Source: Fidelibacterota bacterium
Lineage (GTDB): Bacteria; Fidelibacterota; UBA8477; JABMPR01
Assembly: GCA_021734255.1 (NCBI GenBank)
Contig: JAIPJM010000001.1
Span: 62,001 to 126,000, forward strand
Direction: 5' to 3'
Length of the DNA: 64,000 nucleotides
The notes under the pieces are model-generated. The model searched no databases. It was given only the letters and a program-made list of their open reading frames with translations, and had not been told where the DNA came from. Position numbers and translations under genes: made by a program. Positions within the stretch are counted from its first letter, which is position 1, and every line of letters starts with the position of its first letter. Shown here in pieces: positions 13,719-20,765 of this stretch.

Positions 13719-14068
13719 CCTATGATGAGCTGAAAACGTTCCTGCTCGAGTTCCCTGCATCGACTCTTTCATTTCCTTTTGATGAGACGACTGCCGTATT
13801 CAAGGTTGGCGAAAAAATGTTCGCATTGGTGTCGCCGGAATCAGATCCGCTTCGGGTCAATCTGAAGTGTGACCCTCAGGATGCCCAGGCCTTGCGTTTT
13901 CAATTTCCAGCGATCCAGCCTGGTTATCACATGAACAAGGAGCACTGGAATTCTGTCTATCTTGATGGCAGTCTGGAACCATCCCTGGTGAAGGACATGA
14001 TCGCTGATTCTTACCGGCTTGTTCTCAGCTCCTTGAGCAAGAAAAAGCAGCGCGCGATACGGACTTAA
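13715..14068 (+). CDS. MmcQ/YjbR family protein
   Basis: The 117-residue protein shows the MmcQ/YjbR pattern: FPFDETTAVFKVGEKMFALV, NLKCDP, and IQPGYHMNKEHWNSVYLDG. The fold resembles DNA-binding CyaY-like proteins, but its role is not established. The ATG overlaps the TrpF-like stop (ATGA). Its stop codon overlaps the stop of the convergent MauE-like gene by three bases, leaving no room for a conventional terminator between them. Confidence 0.88.
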   Translation: MTYDELKTFLLEFPASTLSFPFDETTAVFKVGEKMFALVSPESDPLRVNLKCDPQDAQALRFQFPAIQPGYHMNKEHWNSVYLDGSLEPSLVKDMIADSYRLVLSSLSKKKQRAIRT

Positions 14069-14511
14069 TTCTTCTCTCTGGGAAAGAGAAGGTCCCGTCC
14101 TCTATACAGAATAATTAAAAGTAACAGGATCAAGATTTTCTGGGCGAGGATAAAGTATTCATCATCTCCAAATAAACCACATCCGCATTCGGATTGTAGT
14201 TTAAATATCAGCGACCACACACTAAGTCCGACGCCGACCGTTGTTAAGGCTAACATAAAGAACACCCCGACAGAAAATATTTTTCTCAACCAAAGGCCGA
14301 CAATACAAACCAACTCTATTATAAGAGCAAGAATACCGTAAAGAGCTATGACGTTTGGAAGCTGATAGGCAACTACCATTTTTCTATAAGGCTCAAGTCC
14401 AAACTGGTTTAGAAATATGATCTTTTGGATGGCAATAAAAATGAGTGCTGTTGACATAAGCCAGCGAATCAACTCAAGGGTCTTTATTTTCGAGGGAGGT
14501 CTATATCTCAT
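14065..14511 (-). CDS. MauE/DoxX-like redox-associated membrane protein
   Basis: The 148-residue protein has four hydrophobic helices and, between the third and fourth, a SECGCGLFGD stretch (C109, C111). This CGC-F/L-G pattern is typical of MauE-like proteins, relatives of DoxX and DsbD-like modules that help form or transfer disulfides across the membrane. It overlaps the stop of the upstream propeller-like gene by four bases (ATGA), so the two are likely translationally coupled. Upstream of both is a small secreted two-cysteine peptide, a possible client. Confidence 0.75.
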   Translation of the reverse strand: MRYRPPSKIKTLELIRWLMSTALIFIAIQKIIFLNQFGLEPYRKMVVAYQLPNVIALYGILALIIELVCIVGLWLRKIFSVGVFFMLALTTVGVGLSVWSLIFKLQSECGCGLFGDDEYFILAQKILILLLLIILYRGRDLLFPREKN

Positions 14512-15674
14512 TCTTGATTCAGTTTCTTATACTGATCGATCGCAGCATCAATAGCTCTTTTTTCTGCCAGACCGTTTAACACGTCTTGAATTGTCATTCC
14601 CACCAGATATAGTTCGTCTGACTCCAGCCAGCCGCCTTTCCTTGAGATCGCAAAGAAGACCCTATTCTCGTGGTCTTCTGTGACCACAGGGTAACTTGAG
14701 ACCATGCTCAGCACGTGTTCTCCAGACATTGTAATTATGTCAATATTATAGGGACCTGCTGGTGGGTCTCCCCCTGCTTGGTTTTGGACAAAGGAAGTTA
14801 AAATGTATGTGTTGTCAGTATAGAGAGCGTATGCTCTTGAATACGATTCACTGGTTGAATTTAGTGATTCAGCCTGTTCTTTAGTCAGCTCTTTAGGAAT
14901 TGGTCGAAAATTCTCATTCCATATATAATATTGTTTTGTCGTTTTATTGGGCCTTCGTAATTCGCTTACCGTGTAACCATCGATGTGGTCGATATAAAAG
15001 ATGGTTCCGTCCTCACTTACGTCCAGGGGAGTTGTGAGGTACAGGCGTTCATAGGCTTCTGCAGCTTCACCCTTCAGGGGTAAAATCGCCGCTGAATCAA
15101 CCAGATTGAAGGAATCATCATAAAACGACAGAGAAAATGCATCGCTAATCTGATACAGCTCTTTGAATTTCCGTTTAGACTGCTTGGTAGGACCAGAACC
15201 GCTTTCATCATCATAGAGATCAAGATATGTGGAATAGAGTGGTCGATAGAGCCCTGCCTGTAATATGAGGCCATCTTTTGTTCTAAGAATTCGTCCACCC
15301 CGCCCGTGTTTTCTTTTGGGTCCACTTAAAATCACGCCATTCATGTTCACGGAACACAAATAGTACATGCCGTCTATACCGAGATAAAACATGACCAAGC
15401 GCCCATCATCATGTAACAAAGACGAAATCGAAAAGTACTTACTGTACTTAATATCCAGAGGGAGTTTTTCAATTCCATCAGGAAACCTTTTATTTTGCGC
15501 GTAGATTCCACCTTTTCCTGCCAAGTAGAGATATGAGTTATCAATAGCAGTAGCTCCGTTCGACAAGGCAAGATCTGAGTATAGTGTTTTGGCGTATTTG
15601 GAAGATAGTTTTACCACCTCTGCCTGGCTAACACCAAAACTAAACCAAAAGAGTATCAGGATGAGAGACTTCAT
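14508..15674 (-). CDS. Secreted beta-propeller-like protein, unknown function
   Basis: The 388-residue protein starts with a signal peptide (MKSLILILFWFSFGVSQA, cleavage near 18-19). The mature part has repeating short strand patterns such as NSYLYLAGKGGIYAQNK, DGRLVMFYLGIDGMYYLC and EDGTIFYIDHIDGYTV. These resemble the six-bladed propeller (BF3164/NHL-like) proteins that accompany small secreted peptides in FCB bacteria. The family call is by pattern only. I chose the ATG at 15674 because it begins the signal peptide and has AAAGGA upstream; the open frame extends 24 codons further. It lies 43 bases downstream of the peptide gene and overlaps the MauE-like gene. Confidence 0.6.
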   Translation of the reverse strand: MKSLILILFWFSFGVSQAEVVKLSSKYAKTLYSDLALSNGATAIDNSYLYLAGKGGIYAQNKRFPDGIEKLPLDIKYSKYFSISSLLHDDGRLVMFYLGIDGMYYLCSVNMNGVILSGPKRKHGRGGRILRTKDGLILQAGLYRPLYSTYLDLYDDESGSGPTKQSKRKFKELYQISDAFSLSFYDDSFNLVDSAAILPLKGEAAEAYERLYLTTPLDVSEDGTIFYIDHIDGYTVSELRRPNKTTKQYYIWNENFRPIPKELTKEQAESLNSTSESYSRAYALYTDNTYILTSFVQNQAGGDPPAGPYNIDIITMSGEHVLSMVSSYPVVTEDHENRVFFAISRKGGWLESDELYLVGMTIQDVLNGLAEKRAIDAAIDQYKKLNQE

Positions 15675-15717
15675 ATTCAATATCCTTTCAAGGAGGGCTG
15701 TAAAAGCCCTCCCATTT

Positions 15718-15951
15718 TCACCACGGAATGCTAAAATCGGCGACAAACCTTATGCACTGCCAATAATCAGTATTAGAGCACTCTCTGCCAAAAGTTGTCT
15801 TTGTCCAAGAGCCGATATAGGCGCCAATTAACGCATCTGTTTCGTCTTGATTTGAGGTGCCGGGGTAACTGCCGGCTGCTTCTCCATTTACCATCCCTAC
15901 CATCAAAAGCGCCACCAGCCCACTTAGAAGGATACGTCTGATCTGTAACAT
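15718..15951 (-). CDS. Small secreted peptide with two cysteines (77 aa)
   Basis: The ATG at 15951 has AAGGA about seven bases upstream. Residues 1-23 form a signal peptide (basic LQIRR, then a hydrophobic core ending in VNG). The mature part is only about 54 residues, is rich in Gly, Ser, Thr and aromatics, and has two cysteines at 58 and 66 (ECSNTDYWQC) that could form one disulfide. I know no family with this exact sequence. It recalls the NVEALA-type peptides of Bacteroidota in size, architecture and propeller neighbour, but similarity is not established. A structured leader precedes it. Confidence 0.65.
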   Translation of the reverse strand: MLQIRRILLSGLVALLMVGMVNGEAAGSYPGTSNQDETDALIGAYIGSWTKTTFGRECSNTDYWQCIRFVADFSIPW

Positions 15952-16020
15952 ATCTTTTTCCTTTCTTTTTGGGGTGGCTGATCCACCAGGTATGAACCAC
16001 TCCCTGTTCGCTTGTTGATT

Positions 16021-16184
16021 GCTCTTACCCATAAAGAGCGTTATGCTTGTCGGTGACAAACCAGACACTTTTTGATAAAAGTGTTTTACCTACAACACTA
16101 TGGGTTGTAGCTACACAAGTTCAGTTTTCTTCTTTAGGTTAGTGCGAAGGTGGTTTGTCTTTCGACAAGCTTATATTAATATAA
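16021..16184 (-). promoter_or_regulatory. Leader region with five perfect inverted repeats upstream of the peptide gene
   Basis: Five perfect dyads lie within 164 bases. They are GCTCTT/AAGAGC (16021-16039, 6-bp stem), CACTTTT/AAAAGTG (16066-16083, 7 bp), CTACAAC/GTTGTAG (16090-16110, 7 bp), TTGTC/GACAA (16155-16168, 5 bp) and the 14-base palindrome TTATATTAATATAA (16171-16184). A predicted promoter overlaps the last one, so the other four would mostly lie in a transcribed 5' leader of about 210 bases. They could be RNA hairpins controlling the peptide operon or protein-binding sites. Confidence 0.5.
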
Positions 16185-16200
16185 CTTGGGCATAATGCAA
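16173..16200 (-). promoter_or_regulatory. Predicted promoter of the peptide-propeller-MauE operon
   Basis: On the minus strand TTGCAT (16200-16195) and TAATAT (16178-16173) are separated by 16 bases. The position fits: just after the terminator of the DUF3078 gene and upstream of the peptide gene. Prediction by eye only. Confidence 0.4.
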
Positions 16201-16202
16201 AT

Positions 16203-16227
16203 AAAAAGAGCCCGCTTTAAACGGGCT
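16203..16227 (-). terminator. Rho-independent terminator after the DUF3078 gene
   Basis: On the minus strand AGCCCG and CGGGCT form a perfect six-pair stem around a seven-base loop, followed by CTTTTTAT. It lies about 25 bases beyond the stop of the DUF3078 gene. Confidence 0.85.
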
Positions 16228-16251: not shown

Positions 16252-17097
16252 TCAAATGAAGGTGTAATTCAAACCAATAGCCATGGTCTGCTTGATCTGC
16301 CGTTTGACTGAGATGTCCTTGTCATACACCAACTTCACGTTCACATTCATGTTGATGTACTCGGAAACCTTCACTGTAAGGATGTTATCATAATTCACAT
16401 CGATTTCATCCAGGCCGCCAAAGTTAGAGAAGAGCTCCAATTTGCCTCTGTACTGAGCCGACTCTGTGACCGGCCAATTGATGTCGGTGACGGATTCTGC
16501 ACCAACCTCACTTCTGAGTGTTTCTATTTCCACGGGTGTGTCCGGGTCATCGCTGTAGCCGGGATAATCATGGGTTACCGTCTGCTTTAGGGCCGCTCCC
16601 AATCGGGTGGTTACCACCTCGTTTAGCTGTACACCGGCACCAAGACTTTCCCTAAAATAACCGGGGTCCATGAAGGCTGAGATCTCTGTCGCCGGTTCGG
16701 TTGTATAATCGAAGCCTTCAGTAAATTGGGTTTCACCGGTTACGGCAGCGTAAGGATTAACAGCAGTCCCCGTTTTGTATGTATATACACTCTCTAGTTT
16801 GATCTCGTCTGCAGATTTAATCAACTCAGTATCACCTATTCTGGCGTTACCATAGGCAAATTTTCCAGTGTTTTTCCAGCTGAATCTCGCATCATTCTTG
16901 ACAAACTGGTAGGTCAGATTCACCTGCCAGGAGAATGCGTTTTCACCACCGGCAGACCAATTGTCAAAACTGGTCTGGGTTAGGTTCAAACCACCAACCA
17001 CAGACTTTTCCCACACAGCGGTGCTGTCCTCTTGGCCTGAGACTTGCGCTATCAGGCTTACTAACAAGAGCATTACGAATGTTTTATTAGTCTTCAG
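16252..17097 (-). CDS. DUF3078 outer-membrane/periplasmic protein, probable CTG start
   Basis: The protein matches DUF3078, an FCB-group family of unknown function: WEKSVVGGLNLTQTSFDNWSAGGENAFSW-type opening with alternating beta strands to a C-terminal aromatic (GLNYTFI), suggesting a small outer-membrane barrel. The first ATG (17073) would give a signal peptide with no basic residues. Reading from the CTG at 17097 adds MKTNKTFV, which completes a normal signal peptide. An AGGAGGG binding site (17104-17110) lies six bases before the CTG but over 30 bases before the ATG. I therefore call 281 residues from CTG. Confidence 0.8.
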   Translation of the reverse strand: MKTNKTFVMLLLVSLIAQVSGQEDSTAVWEKSVVGGLNLTQTSFDNWSAGGENAFSWQVNLTYQFVKNDARFSWKNTGKFAYGNARIGDTELIKSADEIKLESVYTYKTGTAVNPYAAVTGETQFTEGFDYTTEPATEISAFMDPGYFRESLGAGVQLNEVVTTRLGAALKQTVTHDYPGYSDDPDTPVEIETLRSEVGAESVTDINWPVTESAQYRGKLELFSNFGGLDEIDVNYDNILTVKVSEYINMNVNVKLVYDKDISVKRQIKQTMAIGLNYTFI

Positions 17098-17380: not shown

Positions 17381-17770
17381 CTATTTCACCAATTTTGACA
17401 GGTCAAAACTTTCATCATCCCGCTCAACGACGAGAATTCCCGACATGGGGACAATGATATATTCTTCTTCCTGGTATTTGATATCAACGGCAAATTTTTT
17501 CATGTACAGGGCATAGTCTCCAACCTCAACCTCAAGGGGAATGTATTTTACCTTTGAGCCATCCTTCTGCTGCCATACATCGGTGTCACCGCTGGTGTCT
17601 GCCAGGGGTGTGCCGGGGCCAACAGCTATCACGTAGCCGCCCTGGACCTCCTCCTTGTCTGTGACGGTAGGAGGTAAATACAGCCCGGATGATGTCTTAC
17701 GTTGACCCGAATCTGGAAATATTAAGACCCGATCTCCGATCACTTTCAGTTTTTCAAATCTACCTGACAT
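17381..17770 (-). CDS. GroES-like co-chaperonin family protein
   Basis: The 129-residue protein has the Cpn10 fold pattern: KVIGDRVLIFPD, the mobile-loop region KTSSGLYLPPT, GYVIAVGPG, EVGDYALYMKKFA and the C-terminal EEYIIVPMSGILVV. It is about 30 residues longer than ordinary GroES (about 95), with extra residues between the GPG turn and the second half and at the C-terminus. No groEL is adjacent, so it may be a specialised paralogue rather than the main co-chaperonin. AAGGT lies ten bases before the ATG. Confidence 0.8.
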   Translation of the reverse strand: MSGRFEKLKVIGDRVLIFPDSGQRKTSSGLYLPPTVTDKEEVQGGYVIAVGPGTPLADTSGDTDVWQQKDGSKVKYIPLEVEVGDYALYMKKFAVDIKYQEEEYIIVPMSGILVVERDDESFDLSKLVK

Positions 17771-17837
17771 TCTTATTTACCTTCTGGTTCGTGACGATGA
17801 AAGTAAAGTTTATTGCCGCTTCGATAAAGGGTTTTTC

Positions 17838-18800
17838 CTAGACCTGTTTTGTCTGCTTGAGGGCGTGCTTCACCCCCCACACACTATAATATTGTAACAT
17901 ATATCGAATCATCCAAAACGCAATCCGTTCTGGCCCAACAAGCCTTAAGCCCCTTGCAATAAACAAGAACGGTTTCGTAAAAAGGGCGGTCATGATAAGC
18001 CGGTAATAAAAGTTAATCGGGGCAAAGCCTGCGATCTTTACAAACCTGCTGGGTAGTTTTCCGTAAACACCTAGATAGATCGACAGGAGCTTTGGAATGC
18101 CCTCCCGCCCGAATTCGTATCGTTTTTTCAGCGCTTCTTTCAAGGGTGCGTGCTGACAAAAAGCAACGGCCTCTTGATCAAACGCGACACGACCCTCTCT
18201 GTTTACTGTGAGCCGGTGGGCAAAATCAATATCTTCAGCTTCATGGTTGTCAATGGTTTCGTCAAACCCTCCACAGCTTTCGTATATTTCTTTTCGAACC
18301 GAGAAGTTGGCCGTGTTAACATAACGCAATGGAGGAGAGCCAGGATCGGATTCACCGGCCCAGCGCCGGATGCTTCTGTAATCACTGTCCAGGAACCTGA
18401 ACCAGCGGTTTTTTTTAATAAAGGGAGGAAGGAATTGCTCTCCCATAACCGCAAAAACATTATCATCAGCATAGTTCTCGGCGTGTCTTTTCAGCAACTC
18501 AGGTGAACATTCAAAGATATCCTCCAAGAACAAAATGATATTGTGTGACGTTAGGGCTGCGCCTTTGTTTCTACCGGCTGCTCTGTTTGAGTTTTTTACT
18601 GCTGGAGCAAGTTTTAATTTATATTTGTGTTCCTGTTCGCGTAAAAGTCGTTCAACTTTATGATTAAGTCCTTTATAGACCAATATAACTTCCAGTCGAA
18701 CCTGGTCATTCACCACCACGTCTAAACTACTTAATAGTCTCACACAACCGTCTGGATTGCTATCACTAAAAATGACCACACTTATATCAGGACGTCTCAT
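17838..18800 (-). CDS. Glycosyltransferase family 2
   Basis: The 320-residue protein begins with the GT2 core strand ISVVIFSDS and has RAAGRNKGAALTSHNIILFLEDIFE around residues 73-97, where the usual DxD is LED. ETIDNHEAEDIDFAHRL (about 180-196) matches the acceptor-site ED motif. A hydrophobic C-terminal stretch (about 255-290) may bind the membrane. It overlaps the preceding GT4-like gene by 14 bases and ends the glycan cluster. Donor and acceptor sugars cannot be inferred. Confidence 0.85.
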   Translation of the reverse strand: MRRPDISVVIFSDSNPDGCVRLLSSLDVVVNDQVRLEVILVYKGLNHKVERLLREQEHKYKLKLAPAVKNSNRAAGRNKGAALTSHNIILFLEDIFECSPELLKRHAENYADDNVFAVMGEQFLPPFIKKNRWFRFLDSDYRSIRRWAGESDPGSPPLRYVNTANFSVRKEIYESCGGFDETIDNHEAEDIDFAHRLTVNREGRVAFDQEAVAFCQHAPLKEALKKRYEFGREGIPKLLSIYLGVYGKLPSRFVKIAGFAPINFYYRLIMTALFTKPFLFIARGLRLVGPERIAFWMIRYMLQYYSVWGVKHALKQTKQV

Positions 18801-19896
18801 TCGGATCCTTATTTAGCCACCCCATCCTGTTATAAATATCATAAACCGACTGCGTCACCGAATCAATGCCATGGGTTCTTTCAACCCAGAGTCTTCCTTC
18901 ACATTTTTTCTTCAGAACCTTTTCCCTATTGTTAACCAGTGTCGACAAGTCGTCATAAAGCGTGTCTTTGTGAATATTTACAAAGGGGTGGTCACCAAGA
19001 AAGGTCTCGTATTTTGGGAGTAAATTCGTACAACAACACAAACCCATGGACAAGGCTTCAACCGAGTTCATGCCGTACCCCCACCCGCCACGGTTGGATA
19101 CTTGATCCAGATAAATGTCACAACCCGCCTTCAGTTCCAGCGTTTTCTCATAAGGCTGGTTCTCGATCAACACAAATTCTACATCATGGGTTTTCTCAAG
19201 TTTTTCACATGCCGCTATGATCGCATCGGACCCTTTCCAATATCGATCCCGGGTTGCATGACAAAGCCTTAAAGGTGAGTTAAGTTCGTAGTGTGCCGCA
19301 TGCTGCTCTACCCGGTATGGAAGAAACACATACTCCATTTCCGGGTGTTTATCCAACAAATCTAGTTCGCTACTTGTGTTCACATCGACGAGCTCATCGA
19401 TCCAGGGAAGAACACCACGCGTTCTCATGTCCACCCCATGATAGTTGGCAATAATATGTTTACCCCTCCGCTTCAGCTCATCAAAGGGCCAGGCTGATGT
19501 TCTAAAGAAGCCATGACCGCCCTCCAGGTGGTAAATATCAAAATCCATGAGTCCATGCTTCTCTATCGCCTTTTTAACCTTTGACCTCCACAACAGATCC
19601 CGAAACTTAAAAAAGAGTTTTCGCCCTGTCGGTGGACGCCACTGTGGTGGAAATCCCTCAGCCTCTGCATACAAGGCGTCCTGGTTTAGAATCGCTTGTT
19701 TGGCTTTTTTAAATGTCTCTGTTTTTGGAAGGAGCGGAAGATCCAAACAAATATCTTCAGGAAACCCTTCTGCTGTTGGAAACAGAGTGACGAACCGGGC
19801 TTCGTTTCCTAGGCGCTTGTGACCCTCTACAAATAAAGACAGGGTTCCGGATGAGTTTTCGGTTCTCAGGTATAATATTTTTAGCGGGCGTCCCAT
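18787..19896 (-). CDS. Glycosyltransferase, GT4-like (GT-B fold)
   Basis: The 369-residue protein has a GT-B pattern: ILYLRTENSSGTLSLFVEGHKRLG at the start, a LRLCHATRDRYWKGSDAI stretch opening the C-terminal nucleotide-sugar domain, and WGYGMNSVEALSMG (about 281-294) carrying the ExxxxxxG-type motif. Sugar specificity is unknown. It overlaps both neighbours by 14-16 bases within the glycan operon. Confidence 0.75.
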   Translation of the reverse strand: MGRPLKILYLRTENSSGTLSLFVEGHKRLGNEARFVTLFPTAEGFPEDICLDLPLLPKTETFKKAKQAILNQDALYAEAEGFPPQWRPPTGRKLFFKFRDLLWRSKVKKAIEKHGLMDFDIYHLEGGHGFFRTSAWPFDELKRRGKHIIANYHGVDMRTRGVLPWIDELVDVNTSSELDLLDKHPEMEYVFLPYRVEQHAAHYELNSPLRLCHATRDRYWKGSDAIIAACEKLEKTHDVEFVLIENQPYEKTLELKAGCDIYLDQVSNRGGWGYGMNSVEALSMGLCCCTNLLPKYETFLGDHPFVNIHKDTLYDDLSTLVNNREKVLKKKCEGRLWVERTHGIDSVTQSVYDIYNRMGWLNKDPNETS

Positions 19897-20765
19897 GCGT
19901 TTCTAACAACCAGGTGAAGATAAAGCCTGTAGATACTATGTGATAGTTTTCTGTTTTTATCAATGGTTTTTGATAGACATCGTTCGATCGCTCGCGTCAG
20001 ACCCAAAATAGCGAGAATTCGCCAGAGCCACTCTTGAGGTAGAATATCCCCTTTTAACTCTGGGTGTTTCTGTAGCAGGTTGGGGAGCCCTGTCCTGCCG
20101 TACTCCCGTAGACGCTTAAGCGTTTGGAGTTTATCTGGAATTTGTCTTCTCTTCAATATAATCTCTTTTATTTCCAGGCGACGGTTAAAGCCGGCTTTAT
20201 CCATACGAAAAATAAAGTCCATCTCATGGCCACCATAGTGTTTCATCTCTGGATCAAACCCCTTGATGAGTTCAAAGGTTTCTCGCTTGATCACTGCGGC
20301 TGTAAACAGGCTCTGTTTAATCGGTAGAAATTCGCCTTTTGCCTTGACTCGTGTGTGTTGGTTGCCAATAAATCGCTGAAATGGATCTAAGCTCTTCTCG
20401 TCAAAAGTGGTGATGGGATGTTGGGCAAAGTCAAACTCCCTATCGGATATAAATTTATTCAGGCTATCGATATAATCCGAAGGGTATGACAGGAAGCTGG
20501 ACATGAAAACCAGATGATCGCCGCTGCTGTCTTCTGCCCCTGTATTTCTGGCTGCCGCTGCACCTCTTTGTTCTTCATGGTGAATGATGCGCCAATTGTC
20601 ATGCTGCCAATTCCCCAAAGACAACTTCTCGTTTGAAGCATCGTCAATAACGATCAACTCCCAAGAAATCTCACCAGCAAATCCATTGATGTCAGCAAGG
20701 AAAACCTCTAACTCTGCCTGGGTTCCGTTGATCGGCAGGATCAGGGAGATATCAACAACGGCCAT
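19881..20765 (-). CDS. Glycosyltransferase family 2
   Basis: The 294-residue protein opens with ISLILPINGTQAELEVFL, then WELIVIDDAS (about 35-44) and RGAAAARNTGAEDSSGDHLVFM (about 68-89), typical of GT2 nucleotide-sugar binding. GFDPEMKHYGGHEMDFIFR (about 168-186) is the acceptor/catalytic ED-type region. A basic C-terminus may sit at the membrane. It starts three bases after the flippase stop. Confidence 0.85.
   Translation of the reverse strand: MAVVDISLILPINGTQAELEVFLADINGFAGEISWELIVIDDASNEKLSLGNWQHDNWRIIHHEEQRGAAAARNTGAEDSSGDHLVFMSSFLSYPSDYIDSLNKFISDREFDFAQHPITTFDEKSLDPFQRFIGNQHTRVKAKGEFLPIKQSLFTAAVIKRETFELIKGFDPEMKHYGGHEMDFIFRMDKAGFNRRLEIKEIILKRRQIPDKLQTLKRLREYGRTGLPNLLQKHPELKGDILPQEWLWRILAILGLTRAIERCLSKTIDKNRKLSHSIYRLYLHLVVRNAWDAR

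Follow-up and report, generated by a model that had tools for sequence, protein, structure and literature searches.

Loci that combine a small secreted peptide with an exported propeller are known from Bacteroidota, where the peptide of the NVEALA loci (PF14055 with PF15869 or DUF5128) has a conserved leader and a variable, cysteine-containing tail and its gene adjoins that of the propeller. The agr locus of Staphylococcus is a polymorphic peptide-signalling locus, in which the peptide and its partner genes form a variable block. Polymorphism and pherotypes have also been described for ComQXPA of Bacillus (PMC4408185). Here we report on a peptide locus from a Fidelibacterota bacterium (assembly GCA_021734255.1, contig JAIPJM010000001.1, positions 62,001 to 126,000), this stretch of 64,000 nucleotides being referred to as the window. 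On the minus strand of the window, which carries all features of the locus given below, a gene with an ATG start encodes a 77-residue peptide with a signal-peptide-like N terminus and exactly two cysteines (15718-15951). It is followed by a gene for a 388-residue beta-propeller protein with a signal peptide (14508-15674) and one for a 148-residue MauE-like membrane protein (14065-14511), whose start overlaps the propeller stop by four bases (14508-14511).

A preliminary description of the window had recognised these genes as encoding a secreted two-cysteine peptide, a propeller-like protein and a MauE-like protein with a CGC motif, and the coordinates, including the four-base overlap, and a match of the third protein to Pfam family PF07291 bear this out. 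Its span, which ran to position 16200, took in a 5′ RNA without describing it, and the exchange of the gene cassette between species was likewise missed; these two features, the structured RNA leader and the exchange, tell us most about the locus. A search of the literature on NVEALA, on propeller/MauE loci and on Marinimicrobia riboswitches found nothing on this peptide/propeller/MauE system. Overall, we propose that the locus encodes a polymorphic, RNA-gated disulfide-ring peptide system with a propeller partner, for which group-specific recognition would be the likeliest role, a reading to which we give an even chance of being correct.

Conservation of the peptide, propeller and MauE trio

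The locus was compared with 60 relatives and with 245 genomes of the phylum Ca. Neomarinimicrobiota (genomes are designated by G numbers). The propeller was present in 18 of the 60 relatives, and across the phylum a propeller profile and a MauE-subfamily profile matched the same 18 of 245 genomes. The preliminary description would have been contradicted by a peptide frame that is not conserved, or by propeller and MauE genes without any small peptide. Neither was found: the frame has 16 orthologues with two invariant cysteines in the genus, and a small secreted two-cysteine peptide is encoded at the locus in 18 of 18 genomes with propeller and MauE. Within the genus, the order peptide, propeller, MauE, following the same outer-membrane protein (OMP) gene, is constant in 16 genomes when contig ends are allowed for (in G011, the peptide start and its OMP sit on a separate contig). 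The trio is absent from G003, G004, G015 and G019, and because the OMP is absent from them too, the entire locus is missing or unassembled there.

Related loci were found in two genomes of other families, G021 and G028. When the genus-peptide profile was run against 916 stop-to-stop frames from these two loci and four control loci, the small open reading frames adjoining the propellers ranked first, second and third (E 1.4e-7, 7e-4 and 1.5e-3). Overall, the trio is a real conserved unit and no chance arrangement. Viral contigs scanned with the peptide yielded no relative, and hence no sign of carriage by phages. In G021 (L079:8662-13124), two C-x7-C peptides are each followed by their own propeller, and then by a TolB_like propeller and one MauE, which looks like a duplicated peptide-propeller pair. 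The G028 locus (L080:8685-12956) comprises a peptide, a propeller, a DUF5128 propeller and a MauE with the motif C-G-C-G-L-P; a further secreted propeller-like protein, which has no Pfam match, is encoded upstream. In G017, the propeller gene (L077:669-1835) contains two in-frame stops and is either a recent pseudogene or a sequencing error, the RNA, peptide and MauE being intact.

The peptide has orthologues in the 16 genus genomes and three relatives in the two other families. Its leader (codons 1-24) is near-constant, with the consensus MxRxRxILLSGLVALLMVGMVxAGD, while the mature part is variable. All 19 peptides contain exactly two cysteines with seven residues between them; in the window this C-x7-C element reads C58-SNTDYWQ-C66 (15754-15780). 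Variability peaks in the seven ring positions, with an entropy of 2.29 bits compared to 0.44 for the leader and 1.82 for the rest. In Pfam, the window peptide matched nothing up to E 10 and none of 14 orthologues gave a meaningful match, nor was there an NCBIfam match, a credible PHROG match or a match to a bacteriocin family. The peptide thus appears to represent a family outside the catalogued Pfam and NCBIfam models.

The propeller-like character noted in the preliminary description was confirmed by an AlphaFold2 model (predicted local distance difference test score, pLDDT, 85.8; predicted template-modelling score, pTM, 0.85). The leading Foldseek matches of this model are propellers, with BF0058, an exported propeller of Bacteroides fragilis (4RAA, E 3.9e-8), at the top. 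Sequence searches of the window propeller gave no Pfam, NCBIfam or PDB match, the TolB_like and DUF5128 profiles included, and the fold search alone was informative. With confidence in the modelled fold, we assign the protein to what would be a new sequence family of secreted beta-propellers.

The score of the MauE-like protein against PF07291 is 33.7 bits, above the cut-off of 27, and the genome search gave it 33.3 bits. It has four predicted transmembrane helices and a CGC motif, C109-G-C111 (14179-14187), which hydropathy and a positive-inside reading predict to lie on the periplasmic side. C109, C111, K30, E66, W74 and K125 are invariant among 15 MauE sequences. Its own genome encodes a second MauE (L150:1050-1565, C37) that is more typical (94.9 bits) and adjoins a rhodanese-like gene, and which is probably a general member of the family; a VKOR search of the same genome gave no match. 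The linkage of the genes and the MauE family suggest that the locus MauE may exert a redox action on the peptide disulfide.

A structured RNA precedes the peptide gene

The interval from the OMP terminator to the peptide start is about 300 nucleotides long, nearly constant in length and conserved block-wise. It contains a domain (16012-16169) in which a long-range helix P1 closes a multiloop of P2, P3 and P4, followed by hairpin P5. This domain was derived in three ways, from individual folds, from a hand alignment and from a covariance-model alignment of 15 sequences, with the same result each time; MAFFT misplaced P1 in a divergent group, and the RNA was realigned by hand and by covariance model. 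In the covariance-model alignment, which was fitted to the structure, the covariation score was 0.442, compared to 0.210 (standard deviation 0.016) for shuffled alignments and at most 0.121 for slid structures, and compensatory changes on both sides were seen in 24 of 35 pairs, with 91.8% of cells paired. RNAalifold and the slide controls agree with this structure, RNAalifold recovering P1, P2, P4 and P5 unaided. P2 is invariant and hence neutral on covariation. The window domain folds with a z-score of -5.5. Because covarying helices are conserved across species in the 5′ untranslated region (UTR), the region is shown to be a structured RNA.

Searches of Rfam 15 returned no match above the gathering score and nothing credible up to E 5. 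A covariance model of the element, R1, found one copy per genome, always preceding this peptide and nowhere else in the 245 genomes; the RNA of G017 was found in the locus-level search only, and the contig of G005 ends inside the leader. No second copy of the RNA element or of the leader was present elsewhere in the genomes. We therefore consider the RNA to be a new candidate family of cis-regulatory RNA, absent from Rfam. A role of the RNA and leader as a shared regulator or silent cassette was rejected on account of the single copy per genome. Just upstream of the Shine-Dalgarno sequence lies a further hairpin (15974-16000), GUGGUUCAU...GAUCAGCCAC in the window and AGUUUUAUC...GAUAAAACU in most relatives, its stem consisting largely of G-C pairs in the window and of A-U pairs in relatives; this hairpin, which MAFFT misaligns, was judged by eye from the alignments and has no score.

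Constraint on the nucleotide sequence extends into the peptide gene. Codons 7-19 (15895-15933) are frozen at the nucleotide level, with 88% identity at four-fold degenerate sites compared to 33% in the propeller and 31% in both the mature part and MauE, in all three of which these sites are saturated. The constraint on these codons acts on nucleic acid and not on protein. They are proposed to form the coding arm of an expression platform. Specifically, the UTR segments AUCAAA-n-AGCG, CAG and CCCA located 3′ of P5, together with the Shine-Dalgarno GAAAGGA, can pair in a nested fashion with codons 7-17, with 94% of cells paired in this arrangement; in the first of these segments, indels as well as substitutions are clustered close to a bulge that is unpaired. 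The Shine-Dalgarno sequence AGAAAGG (15960-15966) is predicted to pair with codons 7-9, and its pairing with codons 7-11 has a predicted probability above 0.6 in 10 of 14 genomes. Sequestration of the Shine-Dalgarno sequence by the early codons is a supported hypothesis.

Upstream of the RNA, an intrinsic terminator of the OMP gene (16209-16227), formed by an eight-pair stem and a T-run, separates the OMP from the peptide transcript, and a terminator-like stem is present at the equivalent place in most relatives. The terminator is followed by a promoter-like region (16170-16201) consisting of an invariant TTTGCAT (16195-16201) and a -10-like element (16170-16179), which is TTAATATAAG in the window and TTAACATAG in most relatives; TTTGCAT is kept at constant spacing in nearly all of 14 genomes. 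A sigma-70 scan does not list this region, and the type of promoter is uncertain. Because of the OMP terminator, the conserved promoter-like region and the tight gene order in relatives, the single transcript proposed in the preliminary description for peptide, propeller and MauE is plausible.

Probable exchange of mature peptide, propeller and MauE between species

Mean identity within the genus amounts to 69% for the OMP, 82% for the leader, 45% for MauE, 36% for the propeller and 32% for the mature peptide. The distances of mature peptide and propeller are correlated (Mantel r 0.82), with a partial r of 0.77 when controlling for OMP distance (p 2e-4). G018 is the sister of G009 in the OMP tree and groups with G005 in the propeller tree, and G017 is found with G001 and G002 in the former and with the G007-G014 group in the latter. 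Approximately unbiased (AU) tests on the propeller data rejected the OMP groupings G009+G018 (p 1e-26), G001+G002+G017 (3e-90), window+G008 (1e-40) and an eight-genome clade (5e-5), these p values being indicative as the groups were picked after the trees had been seen.

In the comparison of G018 with G009, identity is 86% for the OMP, for the RNA and for the M16 peptidase downstream, and 100% for the leader, compared to 22% for the mature peptide and 34% for the propeller; DNA identity, about 0.9 up to the end of the leader, falls there to about 0.3-0.5. Among known sequences, no propeller comes closer to that of G018 than 45% identity. In a second case of exchange, the cassette of G014 is shared with G009, at 87% identity in both mature peptide and propeller, and not with G013, its closest species (OMP 95%), whose cassette is only 46% (mature peptide) and 64% (propeller) identical. 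Since identity drops just past the RNA-constrained codons, the locus divides into a fixed module of RNA and leader and an exchangeable module of mature peptide, propeller and MauE, and the latter three behave as a block that is exchanged between species.

This cassette comprises the peptide, propeller and MauE genes only, with no receptor kinase, regulator, response gene or exporter. The conserved upstream neighbour, the OMP gene (16252-17073; DUF3078 and DUF481), lies outside the exchanged cassette and adjoins the peptide gene in every genome whose contig reaches that far. The other flank consists in most of the genus of a convergent gene for a PreP-like M16 peptidase (e.g. L070:10233-13202 in G009), and in the window and G008 of YjbR/TrpF/LpxK instead. 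A gene for an HD-domain protein (HD_5 and DUF3391) adjoins the M16 peptidase in G016 (L076:13078-14079) and also in G001, G002 and G011. Further upstream in the window (17381-20765) lie a GroES-like gene (17381-17770) and glycosyltransferase-like genes; relatives partly retain the gene order of this region, some 6 kilobases upstream of the OMP.

Proposed function and alternative explanations

We propose that the promoter, structured RNA and peptide leader would act as the fixed module of the system, and mature peptide, propeller and MauE as the exchangeable one. P1-P5 would fold, and the RNA downstream of it would pair the Shine-Dalgarno region with the early codons of the peptide, keeping translation off or low until a signal (a ligand, a protein or a physical cue) changes the RNA fold and releases it. 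The peptide, to judge from its sequence, would then be exported by Sec via its leader, which would be cleaved off; the export system suggested in the preliminary description is not supported, the locus having no gene for an exporter and the Sec pathway being sufficient in principle. The two cysteines would form a disulfide closing a nine-residue loop, and MauE, given its family and linkage, may supply or reset periplasmic redox equivalents through its CGC motif. Lastly, the secreted propeller may bind its cognate peptide, as both diverge and move together; the modelled propeller fold, a ligand- and peptide-binding one, was counted in favour of the proposed system. The peptide would serve as a pherotype-like signal or self-marker rather than in housekeeping. 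Ring and propeller are hypervariable and pass between species together, as one block, with the flanks staying put, which makes group-specific recognition the likeliest role.

A more far-reaching version can be put forward tentatively, and may well prove wrong: an undescribed regulatory RNA class that shares sequence with the first codons of its target would gate new disulfide-ring signal peptides, and a specificity cassette of ring peptide, propeller receptor and redox protein would be swapped between species, so that an uncultured marine phylum would have a pherotype system that lacks a sensor kinase.

Several points weigh against the recognition system as proposed. The cassette has no receptor kinase, regulator or response gene through which a signalling output might be seen, and neighbouring genes that are transferred jointly can show the correlation seen for peptide and propeller even if the two do not bind. 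The two sides of the pairing between Shine-Dalgarno region and codons are almost invariant and so show no covariation, and in most genomes the duplex energy is not unusual compared to shuffled UTRs, so that the case for pairing rests on positional conservation and the freezing of synonymous sites. The peptide structure model is poor (pLDDT 56) and uninformative on ring geometry. Furthermore, all genomes with the trio, nearly all of them labelled Ca. Neomarinimicrobiota, are metagenome-assembled genomes (MAGs).

The variability of the cassette could also stem from an arms race between toxin and immunity, the mature peptide being a bacteriocin-like weapon, the propeller its immunity or binding protein and MauE the enzyme that matures the disulfide. 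A small secreted peptide with two cysteines, tied to an equally variable partner and exchanged with it as a block, would suit such a role, as would the tandem peptide-propeller pairs of G021. However, the locus has neither a dedicated exporter nor a match to a bacteriocin family, a secreted propeller would be atypical as an immunity protein, and it would be unusual for a bacteriocin to be present as a near-universal single copy at a fixed locus in the genus. We favour signalling and consider antagonism unlikely.

Slightly less likely again is a structural or accessory role of the peptide at the cell surface or in the periplasm, with the propeller as its chaperone or anchor and escape from phages or predators driving the variability. 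Diversification of surfaces through exchange is common, the locus always adjoins an OMP gene, and the C termini of the mature peptides are hydrophobic and beta-prone, although the structure model is weak. This explanation is countered by the terminator that separates the OMP, which does not follow the divergence of the cassette, and by the tight C-x7-C ring, which suggests a discrete ligand.

We consider it improbable that MauE merely oxidises an ordinary secreted client in a plain export and disulfide system, with no special recognition or RNA control. The strict linkage of MauE and the invariance of both peptide cysteines and of the MauE CGC motif would fit, but the structured RNA, the frozen codons and the cassette exchange would be left unexplained, and the cassette contains no export machinery. 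Most improbable is an assembly artefact, for although all records are MAGs and the leader DNA, 92-100% identical over about 70 nucleotides between several species, offers a point at which strains could be misjoined so as to mimic exchange, both flanks of the foreign block in G018 agree (OMP and M16 peptidase 86%), so that an artefact would take two misjoins, the conflicts are several and independent (G018, G017, window/G008, G013/G014) and no close relative of the G018 propeller is known. As both flanks agree and several cases exist, misassembly at the leader is an unlikely source of the exchange signal, and the conservation of RNA and trio is independent of this question.

If the proposed recognition system is correct, the RNA would be a new regulatory class with a single natural target, making its trigger tractable, and the C-x7-C peptides would be a concrete natural family for which a candidate binding protein is at hand. 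An uncultured ocean phylum would be seen to maintain a recognition-like locus under exchange between species, and the peptide/propeller/MauE loci of the wider Fibrobacteres-Chlorobi-Bacteroidetes (FCB) group, which are poorly described, would gain a model that can be tested.

Comparison with known systems

The resemblance to NVEALA/propeller loci suggested in the preliminary description holds for the propellers but not for the peptide. As in those loci, a secreted peptide with conserved leader and variable cysteine-containing tail stands beside an exported propeller; the best fold match of the window propeller is B. fragilis BF0058, and TolB_like and DUF5128 propellers are encoded at the distant loci of G021 and G028. 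In contrast, the peptide has no match to PF14055, its leader ends in LVALLMVGMV-x-A-G-D and lacks the NVEALA motif, and the locus belongs to a different phylum and features a structured RNA leader and cassette exchange. The two kinds of locus are probably related via their propellers. The window propeller shares its fold with TolB_like, DUF5128 and NHL propellers, whose sequence models it does not match.

MauE proteins (PF07291) are known from methylamine utilisation, with MauD as partner. The window protein resembles them in its match above the cut-off, its four predicted transmembrane helices and its conserved CGC motif, whereas it has neither methylamine dehydrogenase nor MauD as a neighbour and is linked to a small peptide instead. 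Like translational riboswitches, the RNA is a single-copy 5′ UTR domain with a covarying multi-helix core followed by a predicted Shine-Dalgarno-sequestering element; unlike known riboswitches, it has no Rfam 15 match, it is found before one gene alone, and about 11 codons of that gene are part of its proposed platform.

Lastly, the cassette is comparable to ComQXPA and agr in being a variable block of peptide and partner between conserved flanks, with a tree at odds with those of its neighbours. It differs from both in having no histidine kinase or response regulator and a propeller as partner, in a conserved module that includes a structured RNA and the peptide leader, and in being exchanged between species.

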